Shown: positions 25,800 through 33,558 of the stretch, in pieces | How the letters are laid out: the number at the start of each line of letters is the position of its first letter | How positions within the stretch are numbered: position 1 is the stretch's first letter | Assembly: GCA_026014705.1 (NCBI GenBank) | Contig: JAOZHU010000013.1 | Location: 1-33,558, forward strand | From: Candidatus Bathyarchaeota archaeon | Lineage (GTDB): Archaea; Thermoproteota; Bathyarchaeia; Bathyarchaeales; Bathycorpusculaceae | DNA length: 33,558 nt | Reading direction: 5' to 3' | The notes under the pieces: model-generated | Told to the model about the DNA's origin: nothing | The model's database searches: none | What the model saw: the letters and a program-made list of their open reading frames with translations, nothing else | Made by a program: the position numbers and the translations under genes

Positions 25800-26048
25800 C
25801 GTCTGCCCTCTTGTTTCTGGTTTTTCTTGGAATCGCCCCGTGTTGAAAGTATGTCACGATATATCATTTCTTCAAACAGCCTTCATGTATTGCTCAAAGT
25901 TGGCGTGCACATGTTCATTATCAACGGGTAAACAAACACACTATTATATCTTATGATTTAAGATTAGTCATTTGGGATCACACTGTAACAAACGCAGAAC
26001 ACCAAAAAACTCCACGGCAGACTAAAAGATAAAAAGTTCTTGATTTTT

Positions 26049-27635
26049 ATGACCGATGAACTATCACGAGTAACCGAAGACTCGGCACGTGGCGGCTTCT
26101 TCCTCTTCTCAGGCGCAACAACAGCCACCATAATAATGGCCCTATCCGCTATACTCGTAGGAAGGCTGTTAGGTCCAGAGCTATATGGACAATACAACCT
26201 CGTCCTGGTAATCCCCAATCTCCTGCTGCTATTTACGGACCTGGGCATCAACGCGGGCATAACAAAATACGCAGCAAGCCTACGGACTGAAGGACTACCC
26301 GACCGCATTCCAGCAATAATCCGCCACGGCATGCTCCTACGCCTGATCACAGGCACAGCCGCAGTAATGCTGAGCATAACCTTCACAAACGTGTTCACAG
26401 CACTCATCAACAGACCAGACCTAGCAAGCTACATCCAACTGACCTCAATCCTCGTAATCTTCCAAGTAATATACACAACCGCAAACTCAGCCTTCGTAGG
26501 CATAGACAAATCAGAATACTCAGCACTAACAACAAACATCCAAGCCATCGCAAAAACAATACTGCAAATCACACTCGTAATTTTAGGATTCAGCCTAACC
26601 GGCGCTTTAATTGGCACAATAGGCGGCTTCGCCATCGCAGCAGCCCTCTCCAGCACCATACTATTCCTTAAACTTCTAAGACCCACACAAAAAACTCAAA
26701 ATACACAAACAAGCTATGCCCAAAACCTCAAGCTTCTAACACGCTACGGCGCGCCACTGTACGTAGCCGTCGTGCTAACAGGCTTAATCCCGCTTTACCA
26801 GCAAATAATCCTCGCCTTCTTTGCCCCCGACACCGCCATAGGCAACTTTAAGGCAGCCACAAACTTCGTCGCCCTGCTCACCATAATAGCAACAGCAATA
26901 ACAACCGCGCTGCTCCCAGCCTTCTCAAAACTTGAACATTCGGCAGAAAAAATAAACGCTTTCTTCAAAAAAGCAAACAAATACACCTGCATCATAATAG
27001 TGCCCACCACAACCCTCGTCATCCTATTCTCTCAACAAATAGTCCAACTGCTCTACGGCACCACATACGATTCAGCCGCACTATTCCTGTCCGTAAGCGC
27101 ACTAATCTACTTCCTCGCAATAATCGGGCACCTAAGCCTAACAAGTCTATTCAACGGCCTAGGAAAAACCCGCCTAACACTCTACGCAACAATCATAAAC
27201 TTCATAACCCTCACAATCCTGTCGCCTCTGCTTGCACAAGCATACAGCGTTATAGGCGCCATCGCTGCCTCGTTAATCGCAGGGTTCTCCGCAGCCGTAT
27301 ACGCAGCAATCACCGCGGTGCGGAAGCTAAGAATCCAATTCGAATTCAAGAAAACAATAACCGTCTACATAATCTCTGCTATATCAAGCATACCCGCCAT
27401 AAGCCTAATACTCTACACGTCACTTTCGCCTACCGCGGTCCTGATAGTCGGAGCGCTCAGCTACCTGATCATCTACGCCACGCTCATGCCCATAATGCGC
27501 ACCGTCGACCAAACCGAACTAGAAGCACTAACAAAGATAACAGGAAGAATACCGCTACTCAGGTGGCTCGCCAAACCACTACTCAAATACCAACTCCAAA
27601 CCCTACTCCTAATCGATAAAACCTCAAAAACCTAA
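26049..27635 (+). CDS. Oligosaccharide flippase (Wzx/AglR-like, MOP superfamily)
   Basis: The 528-residue protein has about 13-14 membrane helices. Its N-terminal segment (GGFFLFSGATTATIIMALSAIL, then RLLGPELYGQYNLVLVIPNLL and TDLGINAGITKYAA) matches Wzx-like polysaccharide flippases, which move lipid-linked oligosaccharides across the membrane. The ATG at 26049 is chosen because GATAAAAAG at 26027-26035 would place the transcript start close to it, giving a leaderless mRNA. An in-frame TTG at 26040 is less likely. Codons are A/C-rich, in clear contrast with the T-rich genes at 15178-24270, so the gene may have a different history from the rest of the locus. Confidence 0.9.
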   Translation: MTDELSRVTEDSARGGFFLFSGATTATIIMALSAILVGRLLGPELYGQYNLVLVIPNLLLLFTDLGINAGITKYAASLRTEGLPDRIPAIIRHGMLLRLITGTAAVMLSITFTNVFTALINRPDLASYIQLTSILVIFQVIYTTANSAFVGIDKSEYSALTTNIQAIAKTILQITLVILGFSLTGALIGTIGGFAIAAALSSTILFLKLLRPTQKTQNTQTSYAQNLKLLTRYGAPLYVAVVLTGLIPLYQQIILAFFAPDTAIGNFKAATNFVALLTIIATAITTALLPAFSKLEHSAEKINAFFKKANKYTCIIIVPTTTLVILFSQQIVQLLYGTTYDSAALFLSVSALIYFLAIIGHLSLTSLFNGLGKTRLTLYATIINFITLTILSPLLAQAYSVIGAIAASLIAGFSAAVYAAITAVRKLRIQFEFKKTITVYIISAISSIPAISLILYTSLSPTAVLIVGALSYLIIYATLMPIMRTVDQTELEALTKITGRIPLLRWLAKPLLKYQLQTLLLIDKTSKT

Positions 27636-27778: not shown

Positions 27779-27845
27779 AAATCAAGCGTTTCCGACAATG
27801 CTTATTAATGTAAGACAATCCATACTTTGTTGGGTGAAATCGATT

Positions 27846-28106
27846 TTGGTAGAAACAGTCACAGTAACTTCCAAAGGTCAAGTAACTATTCCTTCAAAAC
27901 TGAGAAAAGAACTAAAAATAGCCGAAGGAGAGAAACTCCTAATTGTCCGCGACGCAGACACCATCAGGATTATTCCCCTACCAAAGTTATCAAAGCTAGC
28001 CGGTGTTGACCAAGACCTTTTCAAGGGCAGAAAAACCTCAAAAGAAATCGAGGCTAACCGGAATGAGTGGACCAAGGAATTTGAGAAACGAATCCAGCAA
28101 GCCTAA
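27846..28106 (+). CDS. AbrB/SpoVT-family antitoxin (VapB/MazE-like)
   Basis: From the TTG at 27846 the protein has 86 residues and begins VETVTVTSKGQVTIPSKLRKEL, the swapped-hairpin AbrB DNA-binding domain. GEKLLIVRDADTIRIIPLPK follows, with a C-terminal helix (SKEIEANRNEWTKEFEKR) that would bind the toxin. GGGTGAA eight bases upstream supports TTG; an ATG at 27798 would add residues unlike any AbrB. The antitoxin overlaps the next gene, a PIN toxin, so they form a VapBC pair. Palindrome-poor but TATA-like sequence at 27801-27809 is a candidate promoter. Confidence 0.87.
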   Translation: MVETVTVTSKGQVTIPSKLRKELKIAEGEKLLIVRDADTIRIIPLPKLSKLAGVDQDLFKGRKTSKEIEANRNEWTKEFEKRIQQA

Positions 28107-28524
28107 AATCCTCTTAGACACAAAGCCCCTCATCAAATTTTTCGCAAAAGAGGAAGGCTGGGAACCCATCCAGAAAATCCTATCCATGATAGAAGACGAG
28201 AAAATAGAGGCATCAATAAGCGTGGTCACACTGACAGAAATCCAATACGAATACATGCAGGAAAGAAGAGCCGATTTGGCAAAAACCAGAACTGAACAAC
28301 TTAGGTACACGGCGTACATCAAAAAACTTGAAATCAATGAAGAAACCGCCATCAAAGCTGGAGAATTCAAAGGCAAATACCATATTCCCATCGCCGACGC
28401 ATTTATAGCAGCCTCAGCATACTACACAAAATCAATCGTAATCAGCGACGACGCAGACTTCAAAAAAATATCAGAAATCGAAACCCGAACAGAAGAAGAG
28501 TTCAACACACACATCTCAACATAG
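28063..28524 (+). CDS. PIN-domain VapC-type ribonuclease toxin
   Basis: From the ATG at 28063 the product has 153 residues; a TTG at 28081 is an equal alternative, because KPKILLDTKPLIKFF, the start of the PIN domain, follows shortly after. Acidic sites appear as LLDTK, TLTEIQYEYM, IPIADAFIAASA and VISDDADF, so the catalytic set seems complete. The gene overlaps the AbrB-type antitoxin gene by over 20 bases, typical of translationally coupled VapBC pairs. The predicted activity is Mg2+-dependent cleavage of specific RNA, often tRNA or rRNA. Confidence 0.87.
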   Translation: MSGPRNLRNESSKPKILLDTKPLIKFFAKEEGWEPIQKILSMIEDEKIEASISVVTLTEIQYEYMQERRADLAKTRTEQLRYTAYIKKLEINEETAIKAGEFKGKYHIPIADAFIAASAYYTKSIVISDDADFKKISEIETRTEEEFNTHIST

Positions 28525-28711
28525 ACATCTAACCCTCGCAAAAAGAGTCACAGAATTGCCCGCCAAAGAAGAACGCTAAACACCAAGATTATGGTCGCGA
28601 ATAGCCCTGCGTTCCATCAGGTTCTGACATATTAATTTTTTCAAAATTTTGCTTTTATCCCTGCAACAACCTAATCCAAGTGTCAACACCAGAGTCCTTG
28701 GAGGCGATAGC

Positions 28712-28831
28712 ATGAAACTCTACTACTGCGAAAACTGCAAACACGCAATGCTGGAAACGCGACAAGCCCTACGCCACAGGCTGCGTCACCTAACCCACAA
28801 AATAAAACACGCAGAATACGAAGGAACATAA
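28712..28831 (+). CDS. 39-residue single C2H2 zinc-finger protein
   Basis: The miniprotein begins MKLYYCENCKHAMLETRQAL and carries Cys6, Cys9, His22 and His26, which is exactly C-x2-C-x12-H-x3-H. That spacing is the classical C2H2 zinc finger. GGAGG at 28698-28702 gives a strong ribosome-binding site nine bases before the ATG, so the short gene is likely translated. An in-frame TTG or CTG extension upstream lacks such support. Stand-alone archaeal C2H2 miniproteins are known but their targets mostly are not. It lies between two AbrB/VapC pairs; nothing shows that it belongs to either. Confidence 0.75.
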   Translation: MKLYYCENCKHAMLETRQALRHRLRHLTHKIKHAEYEGT

Positions 28832-28947
28832 CGCAACCGCCCTCCGCACCATATGCGCCTAAGTGTCAAACAGGAAAATGATCGCGCTAACAAAAACGTG
28901 GGAATATTTATGTAAGTGGGAAAATTGTGGATTTGTGGGAAAAAGAG

Positions 28948-29199
28948 ATGAGCGTGACCACAGCCAAAGTCGACGAAAAAGGCAGAATAATAATCCCAAA
29001 AAAAATCAGGAAAACAACTAACCTCAAAAAAGGCAGCGCAGTAACCATCAAAACCAAAGGAAAAACCATAATAATTGAGCCACTGGAGCCAGTCGCTGAC
29101 AAATACTACGGAGCCTTTAAAATAGACAAATGGCCCGCAAACATAGACGAATTCACAGTCGAGGTCACAAAGCAATGGTGGAAAACTCAACATACGTAG
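28948..29199 (+). CDS. AbrB/SpoVT-family antitoxin (VapB/MazE-like)
   Basis: From the ATG at 28948 the product has 83 residues. It starts MSVTTAKVDEKGRIIIPKKIR, continues GSAVTIKTKGKTIIIEPLEP and ends with a toxin-binding tail (WPANIDEFTVEVTKQWWK). This is a second AbrB-type DNA-binding antitoxin, distinct in sequence from the one at 27846. A GTG at 28927 is in frame and would add seven residues. ATATTTATG at 28905-28913 may be the TATA box. The gene overlaps the start of the next PIN gene (29175) by 25 bases. Confidence 0.87.
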   Translation: MSVTTAKVDEKGRIIIPKKIRKTTNLKKGSAVTIKTKGKTIIIEPLEPVADKYYGAFKIDKWPANIDEFTVEVTKQWWKTQHT

Positions 29200-29626
29200 A
29201 CACCAACATATTCATACGCTGGCTGGGAAAACACATAGAATTCGGCGAAGCAGCCTACAACTGGATCAAAAAAAAATTGAGCGCTCACAAAGCGGAACCT
29301 ACCTCACCTCCAGTTTGACCATCTACGAGACATTTATAATAATAGCAGGATTAACAGGCAAAAACCTCCGGGACAAAGCCTTTACCGAAGAAATCATAAC
29401 CGCAATAACCCACATAAAAAGCCTAGTAATTGAACCACTAAAAACCGAAGACTTCACCGCAGCAATGGCTCTAATGGACGAATACAACCTTGACGGTGAA
29501 GACGCGGTGCACTTGGCTGTAGCAATTAGAGCAGGCGCACAAGAAATCTTGTCAAACGACAAAGACTTTGATGTTACATCAATGAAAAAAAGTAGAAGTG
29601 CAGGAAAACTGCAACACTGCAGTTGA
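29175..29626 (+). pseudogene. PIN-domain VapC-type toxin split by a frameshift at an A9 run
   Basis: The first frame (ATG at 29175) encodes MVENSTYVDTNIFIRWLGK, the start of a PIN domain, but runs off into KAEPTSPPV and stops at 29318. The other frame encodes RSQSGTYLTSSLTIYETF and the rest of the PIN domain (DGEDAVHLAVAIRAG, then ILSNDKDFD) to the TGA at 29626. The frames join smoothly if one A is added to the nine As at 29268-29276, or if ribosomes slip back one base there. All PIN motifs are then present. It may be a sequencing or assembly error, a decayed toxin, or a -1 programmed frameshift. Confidence 0.8.
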
Positions 29627-29885
29627 CCAAAAATTCACATGCAAAGCAATAAAAGCTGGATATAAAAGAAGCAAAAAATGTGAAACGCGCAAAACCCTTT
29701 ATTTCTGACCGAGAATATGCTTGCCCCTTAGCTGATGTTGCTTACAAACAAATCCGAGAAGCGTTACTCTAACAATGTAACAGCGCCATATTCTACATGA
29801 ACTATTGACGCGAGCTAACTCTGAAAAGCGAAAGTGCCCTTTTCTCATTCAGAAATTCATACCCAACAGCCAACAGCAACAAGGT
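29627..29885. other. Gene-free spacer between convergent toxin genes
   Basis: No gene or clear structural element was seen. It separates the frameshifted PIN gene on the plus strand from a PIN gene on the minus strand. Confidence 0.3.
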
Positions 29886-30293
29886 TTAGCCTATCCACAG
29901 CGTTTCACTGATATCCCTGAAGTGCTCGTCACCTGTGACTATTTTGGCGTCAAACGTCCTTGCCGTTGCTAAGACTATTGCGTCGAAGAGACTTGGCGTT
30001 TTAAGCCCGTCTCTTTTGGCTTTGTCAGCGAGTTCCATGTAGCATTTTGCGGATTCAATCGCTATATCTTTGTCGATGGATACTATGTCTGAAATTTCTT
30101 CTATTGCAACTAAGCGTTCACGGATTATGCTTTCTTCAACGCCTTCCCTGAGATACTTGCGCGCTATTTCAGCAATAACAGTATCTGTAGTGAACGTTTC
30201 TTCGGCTTTTTGGATGATTTCGCGTGCTTTTTCTCCGCTCTTGCTTCCGATAAAGATTTCAACCCATGCGTAGGCGTCAATTACGGTCTTCAC
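29886..30293 (-). CDS. PIN-domain VapC-type ribonuclease toxin
   Basis: The 135-residue protein has a complete PIN pattern: TVIDAYAWVEIF at the N-terminus, TVIAEIARKYL near 40, TPSLFDAIVLATA near 100 and IVTGDEHFRD near 118. The ATG at 30293 gives MKTVIDAYAW. Its start overlaps the end of an RHH-type antitoxin gene upstream on the same strand by 17 bases, the classical VapBC order. Predicted activity is Mg2+-dependent RNA cleavage held in check by the antitoxin. Confidence 0.88.
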   Translation of the reverse strand: MKTVIDAYAWVEIFIGSKSGEKAREIIQKAEETFTTDTVIAEIARKYLREGVEESIIRERLVAIEEISDIVSIDKDIAIESAKCYMELADKAKRDGLKTPSLFDAIVLATARTFDAKIVTGDEHFRDISETLWIG

Positions 30294-30486
30294 CGCGATC
30301 CTCCTCTGAGAAAGCTTTTATTTTTCCTTTGTCCACGCCGAAGGCGTCGTTGAGCCTCCCTTTGCGTTGTTGCGCGGCAAACACTCGTATTGTCTCGTCA
30401 AGAGTCTGTGTATGCAGCTTTCGTTGTAGCCTTTCCAGCATTCTAAGCGTATTCCTTGAGACCCTTACGGTTGTGGTTTTGCTCAT
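30277..30486 (-). CDS. Ribbon-helix-helix-type VapB antitoxin
   Basis: From the ATG at 30486 the protein has 69 residues: MSKTTTVRVSRNTLRMLERLQ, then TLDETIRVFAAQQRKG and an acidic tail ending SEEDRGEDRN. A basic strand and two helices match ribbon-helix-helix antitoxins; the tail would neutralise the toxin. Extending upstream to 30534 would add a Tyr/Ile/Cys-rich segment (YLYTCILYT) that is really promoter and operator DNA. The gene overlaps the downstream PIN gene by 17 bases. A perfect palindrome at 30499-30519, just before the ATG, is a likely binding site for the pair. Confidence 0.82.
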   Translation of the reverse strand: MSKTTTVRVSRNTLRMLERLQRKLHTQTLDETIRVFAAQQRKGRLNDAFGVDKGKIKAFSEEDRGEDRN

Positions 30487-30498
30487 AGCCTTCACAAC

Positions 30499-30519
30499 AC
30501 TTGTATATAATATACAAGT
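30499..30519. promoter_or_regulatory. Perfect 21-bp palindromic operator of the RHH/VapC pair
   Basis: ACTTGTATAT and ATATACAAGT are perfect inverse complements around a central A. On the minus strand the palindrome lies 13 bases before the antitoxin ATG (30486), directly after TATA-like CTTATATAC (30519-30527). This is the usual place for VapBC autorepression. Confidence 0.65.
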
Positions 30520-30534
30520 ATATAAGTATATCAC

Positions 30535-30865: not shown

Positions 30866-31627
30866 ATGAAAAAAACCAGCAAAATAGCCGTATTCACGAT
30901 GTTGACATTAGGCATAAGCCTAACTGCAGCGTCTGCGGTGTACGTTTCGTCATTCTTAGCAATACTCGGCGTAGCAATAATCTTCTGGGGCGCCATACTA
31001 CTCTACATAACGCCAACCAAGCAAGTACCCTTAACCCTGCTAACCGCCTCAGCAACGGCAAACTCAGGCAACATCGAAAGAATACTAGCCGAGCACAGTC
31101 TAACGCACAAGGGCATTTACCTCCCGCCGAAAAACCTTACTGATATTGAATTAAGCCTCACGTTTATCCCGAAAAAGCCGAACACGCCATTGCCGATTCG
31201 CGAAGGCACACTCGACGAAAAACTGACCTCTCCAACAACAAGCGGCGTGTTCCTAACCCCTCCAGGCTTAGCGTTATCGAAGCTGTTTGAGCAGGAACTC
31301 GGCGTATCCTTCACAAAAACCAACTTGAAATACTTGCAAGAAAAAATGCCCAGTCTTCTCGTCGAAAACATGGGTTTAGCAGAAAACGTGGACATCCAAA
31401 CCCAAAGCGACACAATAACGGTTGAAATAGCCAACAGCCTATTCAGCAGCGTCTGCCAAGAAACCAGAAAACTGCCACTAACACATAACGCTGTCGGCTG
31501 TCTCCTGCCCAGCGCCATCGCATGCGCTTTCGCCAAAGCAACTGGAAAGCCAATTGTGATAGATGATGAAAGACAAGGCACAGACGACAACACAACCACA
31601 ATCGAATACCGCGTCTTGGAGGAATAG
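30866..31627 (+). CDS. Membrane protein of unknown function; frame continues beyond a TAG
   Basis: The 253-residue product has two N-terminal membrane helices (residues 7-30 and 32-49, ending LLYITPT). A soluble region follows (ERILAEHSLTHKGIYLPP, GVFLTPPGLALSKLFEQELG, THNAVGCLLPSAIACAFAKATGKPI), finishing IEYRVLEE before TAG at 31625-31627. AAGGAGAAACAC precedes the ATG. I recognise no named domain; similar proteins occur near archaeal surface-glycan genes. After the TAG the same frame stays open for another 71 codons with membrane helices, so the true protein may be longer. It begins an operon with the DUF1616-type gene at 31861. Confidence 0.72.
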   Translation: MKKTSKIAVFTMLTLGISLTAASAVYVSSFLAILGVAIIFWGAILLYITPTKQVPLTLLTASATANSGNIERILAEHSLTHKGIYLPPKNLTDIELSLTFIPKKPNTPLPIREGTLDEKLTSPTTSGVFLTPPGLALSKLFEQELGVSFTKTNLKYLQEKMPSLLVENMGLAENVDIQTQSDTITVEIANSLFSSVCQETRKLPLTHNAVGCLLPSAIACAFAKATGKPIVIDDERQGTDDNTTTIEYRVLEE

Positions 31628-31843
31628 GAAACGCAGCTTCCGCCGCTCACGTTTACAGATGCGAGCATACTGTGCACAATAGGCGCAATAGTCCTCTTAG
31701 TAACCGTAGAATTGACTTCGCCGTATTATGGCATAACTAACCTTGCTGTGAACAGGAAAAACCTAAAGAACGCGGCATTCGCGGTAAGCGCAGCCTTTTT
31801 AGTCACAATCGCAGTAAGAGTAATCAGCATACTCACATCGTAA
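31628..31843 (+). CDS. In-frame continuation after TAG: two-helix membrane segment
   Basis: These 71 codons follow the TAG directly, in the same frame, and read ETQLPPLTFTDASILCTIGA then VLLVTVELTSPYYG. A basic loop NRKNLKNAAFAV and a second helix end at TAA 31841-31843. It has normal codon use and looks like a genuine C-terminal membrane part. No ATG, GTG or TTG precedes the TTG at 31712, which is inside the first helix. GGAGGA at 31618-31623 lies seven bases before ACG at 31631, so reinitiation at a non-standard codon is possible. Readthrough of TAG or a recent nonsense mutation are the other options. The next gene starts 17 nt later. Confidence 0.6.
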   Translation, partial: ETQLPPLTFTDASILCTIGAIVLLVTVELTSPYYGITNLAVNRKNLKNAAFAVSAAFLVTIAVRVISILTS

Positions 31844-31860: not shown

Positions 31861-32478
31861 ATGACAAAAAAGCAATCCGAAACTGAAATACAGGAACTGA
31901 TACTGGAAACCATACGCGCAAAGAAACCAGAAACCACCCAACAACTAATCAACCTTCTGCACGAGAAAACTAACTTACCCGAAAAAGAGATAACGCGCGT
32001 GATACTTGAGCTGGAAAGCCAAAACAAGATACGCTTCACAAAACCCGAAAATCCACCATCAACCGAAGCAGCACATGTTTTCTCCTCAAAATACGCATGG
32101 TACTGGATAACCATCGCGCTGGCGGTAGCCACCACGCTTGCTGTTTTCACTATTCCCGAAGACGCATATCCCATTGTGTATGTGCGTCAAGCCTTAGGCG
32201 TGATCTTCGTGCTCTTTCTGCCAGGCTACGCCTTCATCAAAGCCCTGTTCCCAGCTAAAGTTCCGATAAAAACCAGTAGCGAAAACTTGGACGCAATTGA
32301 GCGCATAGCCCTTAGCTTGGGCATGAGTATAGCGCTTGTCCCGATAGTTGGTTTAATACTCAACTATACACCTTGGGGAATACGTTTAACGCCTATAACC
32401 CTCAGCTTGCTAGCGCTAACAGCGGTAACGGCTACTGTAGCGGTTGCCCGTGAACGCGAGAGCGCAAAGCCGCAATAG
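31861..32478 (+). CDS. Winged-helix plus DUF1616 membrane half
   Basis: The 205-residue protein begins with a winged-helix-like region (EIQELILETIRAKKPETTQQ, then EITRVILELESQNKIRF) of about 65 residues. Four to five membrane helices follow, with AYPIVYVRQALGVIFVLFLPGYAF and LDAIERIALSLGMSIALVPIV, the DUF1616 membrane signature. The extracellular domain usual in DUF1616 proteins is absent; the gene ends soon after the last helix (ARERESAKPQ). A secreted protein at 14509 has just that missing domain. GAGGAC seven bases before the ATG is the ribosome-binding site. Its exact function is unknown; context suggests envelope glycan or archaeosortase-linked work. Confidence 0.82.
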   Translation: MTKKQSETEIQELILETIRAKKPETTQQLINLLHEKTNLPEKEITRVILELESQNKIRFTKPENPPSTEAAHVFSSKYAWYWITIALAVATTLAVFTIPEDAYPIVYVRQALGVIFVLFLPGYAFIKALFPAKVPIKTSSENLDAIERIALSLGMSIALVPIVGLILNYTPWGIRLTPITLSLLALTAVTATVAVARERESAKPQ

Positions 32479-32638: not shown

Positions 32639-33010
32639 ATGGGTAAGAATCGCGGTACCTTAAATTTGGTAGCGGACATTCTGGAAGCCGCGAGAACAGG
32701 CGCGTCTAAAACTCGCATAATGTACAGGGCAAATTTGAGCTTTAAGCTGTTAAAGAAATATTTGGATATGACGCTTAGAGTGGGCTTCATTCAACCGCGC
32801 GGCTTCAAATATGAACTAACAGCACATGGGTATGTCTTTCTAAAACGATACAGGCAATTCCAAGAGAAATACGCTCAAACTCGCAAACTGCTGAAGGATT
32901 TAGCTGCAGAACAGGCATTCTTAGAGGCACAATGCCGAAACGGATTGAACCAAAACGAGCCGAAAAGCCAGCGGTGGGAAGAAAAAGTGCATGACCAGCC
33001 ATCACCTTGA
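32639..33010 (+). CDS. Winged-helix protein with RIMYxANL motif (HTH_45/ArnR1-like)
   Basis: The 123-residue protein shows RGTLNLVADILEAARTGASK, then TRIMYRANLSFKLLKKYLDM and the wing YELTAHGYVFLKRY. A helical, polar C-terminus follows (EKYAQTRKLLKDLAAEQ). It is the third member of this small winged-helix family in the window and the closest to the archaeosortase gene, which starts within about 80 bases of its end. A regulator of the surface operon is a reasonable guess. The ATG at 32639 has no strong ribosome-binding site (GGGGTTGCACCG upstream). Confidence 0.82.
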   Translation: MGKNRGTLNLVADILEAARTGASKTRIMYRANLSFKLLKKYLDMTLRVGFIQPRGFKYELTAHGYVFLKRYRQFQEKYAQTRKLLKDLAAEQAFLEAQCRNGLNQNEPKSQRWEEKVHDQPSP

Positions 33011-33087
33011 TCCGGTAGTTTCCTTTTTCTGAAGTGCCAATTTGAGAGCGCGTGGCGGTCAGCGTCTACAATAGCAGCGTGGATGAT

Positions 33088-33558
33088 ATGCAGAAAACAG
33101 CAAACAACCGTTGGCGCAGTAGCTTATTCTTACTGCATAACCAGCACAGTATAGCTTTAGCCTTAAAGGCGTCGTTTGTCGCCGCAACATCAATCGCGCT
33201 TTACGCGCAGGATTTAGCACTTGTGTTCATTAGTGCGCTGGGCGACGAATCAGCCTTTCACATTTTGGCCATTCCATTCTTGTTCACTTATCTGCTGTAC
33301 CGAAAACGACGGATGATACGCGCTACCCTTCAACGAAAAGAAGCTAACGCGTCTTTCTTTGAAAGAAACTCTGGTTCCTTAATAGGCATAACGCTATGCG
33401 CTATTGCAATCCTTGTTTACTGGTACGGTTCTTACACTTTCACACCGTTAGAGTTTCACATGGCAACTTTGCCCGTTCTTGCAGCAGGATTAACCCTGAT
33501 ATTTTTTAATGCGCAAACGCTCAAGCACCTTGCCTTTCCGATAGCTTTTCTGTTCTTT
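33088..33558 (+). CDS. Archaeosortase/exosortase family transpeptidase, 3' truncated
   Basis: The frame runs from the ATG at 33088 (GTG at 33079 or 33052 are alternatives) to the window end, 157 residues, and is cut. It starts MQKTANNRWRSS. Membrane helices include LALKASFVAATSIALY and FHILAIPFLFTYLLYRKRRM. Further on come YWYGSYTFTPLEFHMATLPVL and FNAQTLKHLAFPIAFLFF, the typical first half of exosortase and archaeosortase proteins. The catalytic Cys, Arg and His lie further downstream and cannot be checked. The enzyme cleaves and re-attaches C-terminally tagged surface proteins, and the PES-tailed protein at 12664 is a candidate substrate. It follows a winged-helix regulator. Confidence 0.82.
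   Translation, partial: MQKTANNRWRSSLFLLHNQHSIALALKASFVAATSIALYAQDLALVFISALGDESAFHILAIPFLFTYLLYRKRRMIRATLQRKEANASFFERNSGSLIGITLCAIAILVYWYGSYTFTPLEFHMATLPVLAAGLTLIFFNAQTLKHLAFPIAFLFF

Follow-up and report, generated by a model that had tools for sequence, protein, structure and literature searches.

A conserved gene pair of Bathyarchaeia whose downstream member seems to begin at a near-AUG codon

Results

The frame of a membrane protein gene near the end of the window (the whole 33,558-nt stretch of Bathyarchaeota DNA analysed here) is broken by a single TAG, and comparison with homologous loci indicates that the two sides of this TAG are two conserved neighbouring genes, A and B, rather than one interrupted or recoded gene. 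In the window and in a few relatives gene B seems to begin at a rare near-AUG codon, which is ACG in the window. We favour, with a probability of roughly three in four, a translationally coupled A-B pair in which A ends at the TAG and a separate protein B would be initiated at the near-cognate ACG. The features of the junction and of the genes that follow are:

30866-31627, + strand: gene A, 253 aa, start ATG 30866, stop TAG 31625-31627
31618-31622, + strand: GGAGG, Shine-Dalgarno-like, within the last codons of gene A and 8 nt 5' of ACG 31631
31625-31627, + strand: TAG, ordinary stop of gene A; every adjacent homologue has TAA, TGA or TAG here and none a sense codon
31631-31633, + strand: ACG, proposed start of gene B, 3 nt past the stop of A, aligned to ATG, ATA or ATT of relatives
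31631-31843, + strand: gene B, 70-aa membrane protein with two helices and a basic loop between them, stop TAA 31841-31843
31861-32478, + strand: gene of a DUF1616 protein (PF07760, E 1.4e-34)
32639-33010, + strand: gene of an HTH_45 winged-helix protein (PF14947, E 1.4e-19)
33052-33558, + strand: gene of an exosortase/archaeosortase family protein (PF09721, E 1.3e-9), running past the window end

The original prediction had described this layout accurately: the frame opened by ATG 30866 meets the TAG and then continues for 71 sense codons to TAA 31841-31843, its end lies 17 nt before the ATG (31861) of the DUF1616 gene, and the GGAGG is present ahead of ACG 31631. The first 28 codons past the TAG are likewise free of ATG, GTG and TTG; the earliest such codon is a TTG at codon 29, within the first membrane helix of gene B, and only GAA and the TAG stand directly 5' of the ACG, leaving no canonical start at or near the conserved start position. 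Further upstream, between a flippase-like gene (26040-27635) and A, three small gene pairs within 27798-30534 resemble antitoxin/PIN-type toxin modules when the ORF list is inspected by eye (27798-28524 and 28927-29626 on the + strand, 29886-30534 on the - strand).

Homologues of A and B

When the read-through A-B protein was used as query, 25 of the 61 genomes searched gave matches, and the homologous loci that we dissected consist of two genes, with A ending in TAA, TGA or TAG and B following as a gene of its own. B was absent from all 110 frames that matched A, and no homologue carried a sense codon in place of A's stop, nor a one-base change of that stop to sense. The suggestion of a fresh nonsense mutation in a single gene thus finds no counterpart among the homologues, which have a stop codon between two genes and are never fused. 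B lies in frame 0, 1 or 2 relative to A in 21, 15 and 24 of 60 adjacent pairs from Bathyarchaeia, respectively, and because 21 of 60 is near chance, the same-frame layout of the window needs no explanation. The spacing between A and B varies as well, mostly from -4 to +13 nt (+3 nt in the window), with stop overlaps (ATGA, GTGA or 32 nt) in some relatives, gaps of 0 to 13 nt in others, and distances of several hundred bases to 1 kb in a few (L010, L012). Homologues that end at this point and are followed by a separate downstream gene with a normal start had been named beforehand as the outcome that would speak against a continuous protein, and this is largely what we found.

Three loci deserve separate mention. 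At L010 (679-1460; G025 C105), whose A is among the closest (57% identity), the genes are separated by about 0.8 kb, and the spacer encodes an AbrB-like sequence (VTVTAKGQITIPSELRKAL) that suggests a toxin-antitoxin insertion between them. At L012 (1390-1510; G060 C31), the first 40 in-frame codons of A include no ATG, GTG or TTG and B is about 1 kb off, so that this locus is possibly rearranged or frame-shifted. The window's own genome holds a second A-B pair (L034; G000 contig C17, 1589-2559), with an ATGA overlap and ATG as the start of B.

In relatives, the opening motif of B is, for example, MNFPL or MQLPPL, and the protein has two hydrophobic helices. B was surveyed at family, order and class level; full-length homologues occurred in 69 of the 257 class-level genomes, the window copy scoring E 4.9e-31. 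For A, a phylum-level sample of 398 genomes gave hits mostly in the window's own order, with weaker matches elsewhere. Because of these full-length homologues and of low pairwise dN/dS values (see below), the comparative evidence indicates that the extension past the TAG is real coding sequence and not a chance open frame. No family exceeded the cut-off for gene A in Pfam or NCBIfam, and no sequence match was found among the sequences of solved structures; B likewise had no match above the cut-off in Pfam or NCBIfam. The AlphaFold model of A (pLDDT 85) predicts two N-terminal membrane helices and a soluble alpha/beta domain. The best Foldseek match to this model had an E value of 4.1e-3 and a TM-score by query of 0.31, with none at E <= 0.001, and the soluble domain may faintly resemble the TRAPPC3/Bet3, H-NOX or BcsD fold.

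The proposed start codon of gene B

The ACG at 31631-31633 aligns exactly with the first codon of B in relatives: the window reads TAG GAA ACG CAG CTT CCG, L011 reads TAA GTT ATG CTA CTG CCC, L069 reads TAA ACT ATA CAA CTG CCG and L073 reads TAA ACT ATT CAG CTT CCG. Scoring the start of B in 72 homologues gave 53 ATG, 6 GTG, 6 TTG, 6 near-cognate codons and 1 CGA, the last belonging to a weak homologue (L131) in which the start could not be placed. The six copies without ATG, GTG or TTG begin with ACG (the window, and L121 of G122, a relative in another family), ATA (L069), ATT (L073) and CTG (L032 and L033, of the same lineage as L120); for the CTG loci the start is placed with less certainty, because one extra residue precedes the motif. 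Each of the six differs from ATG at a single position. Four changes are needed to place the start-less rows on a tree of the A proteins, namely in the window, in L069 with L073, in L121 and in the CTG group. The comparison shows a two-gene organisation, the placement of the ACG at the start position of relatives, the recurrence of near-cognate starts and the conservation of B.

An SD-like motif precedes the start of B in all six near-cognate homologues, and the full GGAGG occurs in both ACG cases versus 3 of 54 canonical cases, a difference noticed post hoc and in small numbers. The A genes served as a rough control: apart from L012 and a copy cut by its contig end, they begin with a canonical codon, but the control is weak because more in-frame codons could serve as a start in A. 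Of the options originally put forward, the last, initiation at ACG 31631 behind GGAGGA, is the one favoured, as close relatives carry ATG, ATA or ATT at that codon and G122 carries ACG too. Searching the literature for ACG initiation in archaea yielded nothing relevant, a point against the coupled reading.

Conservation of gene B, and alternative explanations

The B genes of L069 and L073, which start with ATA and ATT, respectively, differ with dN 0.19 and dS 0.78 (dN/dS about 0.24); they are sister rows (support 100/98), both start-less. The A-B sequence of PLYI01000031 (Candidatus Bathyarchaeota archaeon palsa_989) is identical to L069/L097 of G073. Between the B genes of the window and L073, dN is 0.32 and dS 1.83. 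If the ancestor of L069 and L073 already lacked ATG, selection would have kept a start-less B since that ancestor. B is probably still made without a canonical start, because dN is below dS between L069 and L073 and because B in the CTG lineage is out of frame with A.

These values also bear on the possibility that B lost its start recently in the window lineage, through an ATG-to-ACG change, and is now dying out. A single substitution separates the two codons, and a decayed, frameshifted B copy does exist in G073, but the B frame of the window is intact and of full length with dN well below dS (which does not by itself date the start change), start-less B is intact across the L069/L073 clade, near-cognate codons stand at the same position in three further relatives, and the GGAGG has been retained; we consider decay unlikely. 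The decayed G073 sequence (C114; L072 1689-1960 / L097 1369-1640) is a second, frame-shifted B; the intact copy, with its ATA start, lies about 2 kb downstream of it.

An error in the consensus or assembly, with ACG standing for a true ATG, would need a single wrong base in a genome assembled into 44 contigs, yet ATA, ATT, ACG and CTG occur at the same place in independent assemblies and random errors would not favour this codon, which makes this explanation improbable.

Readthrough of the TAG, by suppression or pyrrolysine, would yield the single 325-residue A-B protein at least in part, as first proposed. It could draw on the window, L069, L073 and L121, where B is in the frame of A, has no canonical start, and is separated from A by only a stop and one codon; four of the six start-less cases thus have the sole layout that permits readthrough, which counts against the coupled reading. 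The association between a missing start and the same frame that readthrough would predict is not significant (4 of 21 versus 2 of 39, p = 0.17), and the stops in these four cases are TAG, TAA, TAA and TGA, so no single suppressor fits. In most relatives B is out of frame with A, the start-less CTG lineage included, and in that lineage readthrough therefore cannot supply B. TAG also closes 3 of the 18 window ORFs of at least 200 aa, among them the DUF1616 gene directly downstream. A search of the genome, which is 96% complete, with profiles of three components of the pyrrolysine system (PylS, PylD and PylB) gave no match for the N-terminal part of PylS and only sub-cut-off matches for the C-terminal part of PylS, PylD and PylB, as in control genomes without pyrrolysine. 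With PylS, PylB and PylD all below the cut-off, we rejected pyrrolysine recoding and regard the TAG as an ordinary stop in the window; together with the absence of any homologue in which one base turns the stop into a sense codon, this makes readthrough very unlikely.

Discussion

For the coupled A-B pair we infer initiation at the ACG, coupling and a role in the A:B ratio, in the following way. Translation of gene A would terminate normally at TAG 31625-31627, and the GGAGG inside the last codons of A would position ribosomes, probably those arriving from the termination of A 3 nt upstream, so that initiator Met-tRNA could start B at ACG 31631. The product would be a separate 70-residue membrane protein with two helices, and the weak near-cognate start would probably hold the amount of B below that of A.

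Coupled pairs, which have been described in archaea, have a gap of a few nt or an overlap, with the SD inside the upstream gene, and their products are often partners in a single complex (PMC6728339, PMC10666635). The A-B pair has this layout, with both genes on the same strand, a gap of +3 nt and GGAGG 31618-31622 in the upstream gene; it differs in its gap in place of the usual overlap and in a putative start outside ATG, GTG and TTG. An ATT start in E. coli gives about 0.3% of ATG in a figure quoted in PMC10666635, and with a near-cognate start B should therefore be in short supply, barring help from coupling. This weakness counts against the coupled reading, as does a Sulfolobus pair, cited in PMC6728339, whose stop and start adjoin but which was not coupled in vitro. 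Streptomyces sigR, which starts with GTC, shows that the ratio of two coupled genes can be set through a rare start (PMC5472188), and by analogy the near-cognate start of B may serve the same purpose. In sigR, and putatively in the window, the rare start belongs to one of two co-transcribed and coupled genes; unlike in the window, the rare start of sigR is on the upstream gene, the window's being on the downstream gene and in an archaeon, and repression through IF3 was demonstrated by experiment for sigR. That the codon is a single step from ATG counts against the coupled reading, because a recent change of an ATG leaves the same trace.

The neighbourhood of the pair recalls exosortase/archaeosortase loci (TIGR04178, PF09721). 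A-B is followed in the window by the DUF1616, HTH_45 and exosortase-family genes, an exosortase/archaeosortase-family ORF lies upstream of A in L016, and secreted proteins with a VPE[LI][GA]T-type tail are encoded downstream of B in some relatives. Unlike components of such loci, neither A nor B has a match to a sortase, substrate or other curated family, and the link is one of neighbourhood only; a part for A-B in archaeosortase-type processing of surface proteins would be a guess from this setting. By eye, similar-looking ORFs also stand upstream of A in L022 and L029. Downstream of A in L012, L013, L016, L017 and L119 are ORFs whose C-terminal regions combine a VPE[LI][GA]T motif with a hydrophobic segment and a basic terminus, as in exosortase/archaeosortase sorting tails; the two of these ORFs that were tested had no NCBIfam match.

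What remains notable is that near-cognate starts recur in B, and a suspected recoding thereby becomes an example of rare start-codon use in archaea that can be tested. We put it at about even odds that this start, repeated and in one clade stable, means that Bathyarchaeia initiate productively outside ATG, GTG and TTG in coupled genes, where a weak start may set the ratio of the partners. In several genomes, gene callers that accept only ATG, GTG and TTG would overlook or shorten a gene that is intact and conserved. The A-B pair, which matches no curated family, occurs in many Bathyarchaeia and sometimes lies beside archaeosortase-family genes, is a candidate membrane pair worth naming.
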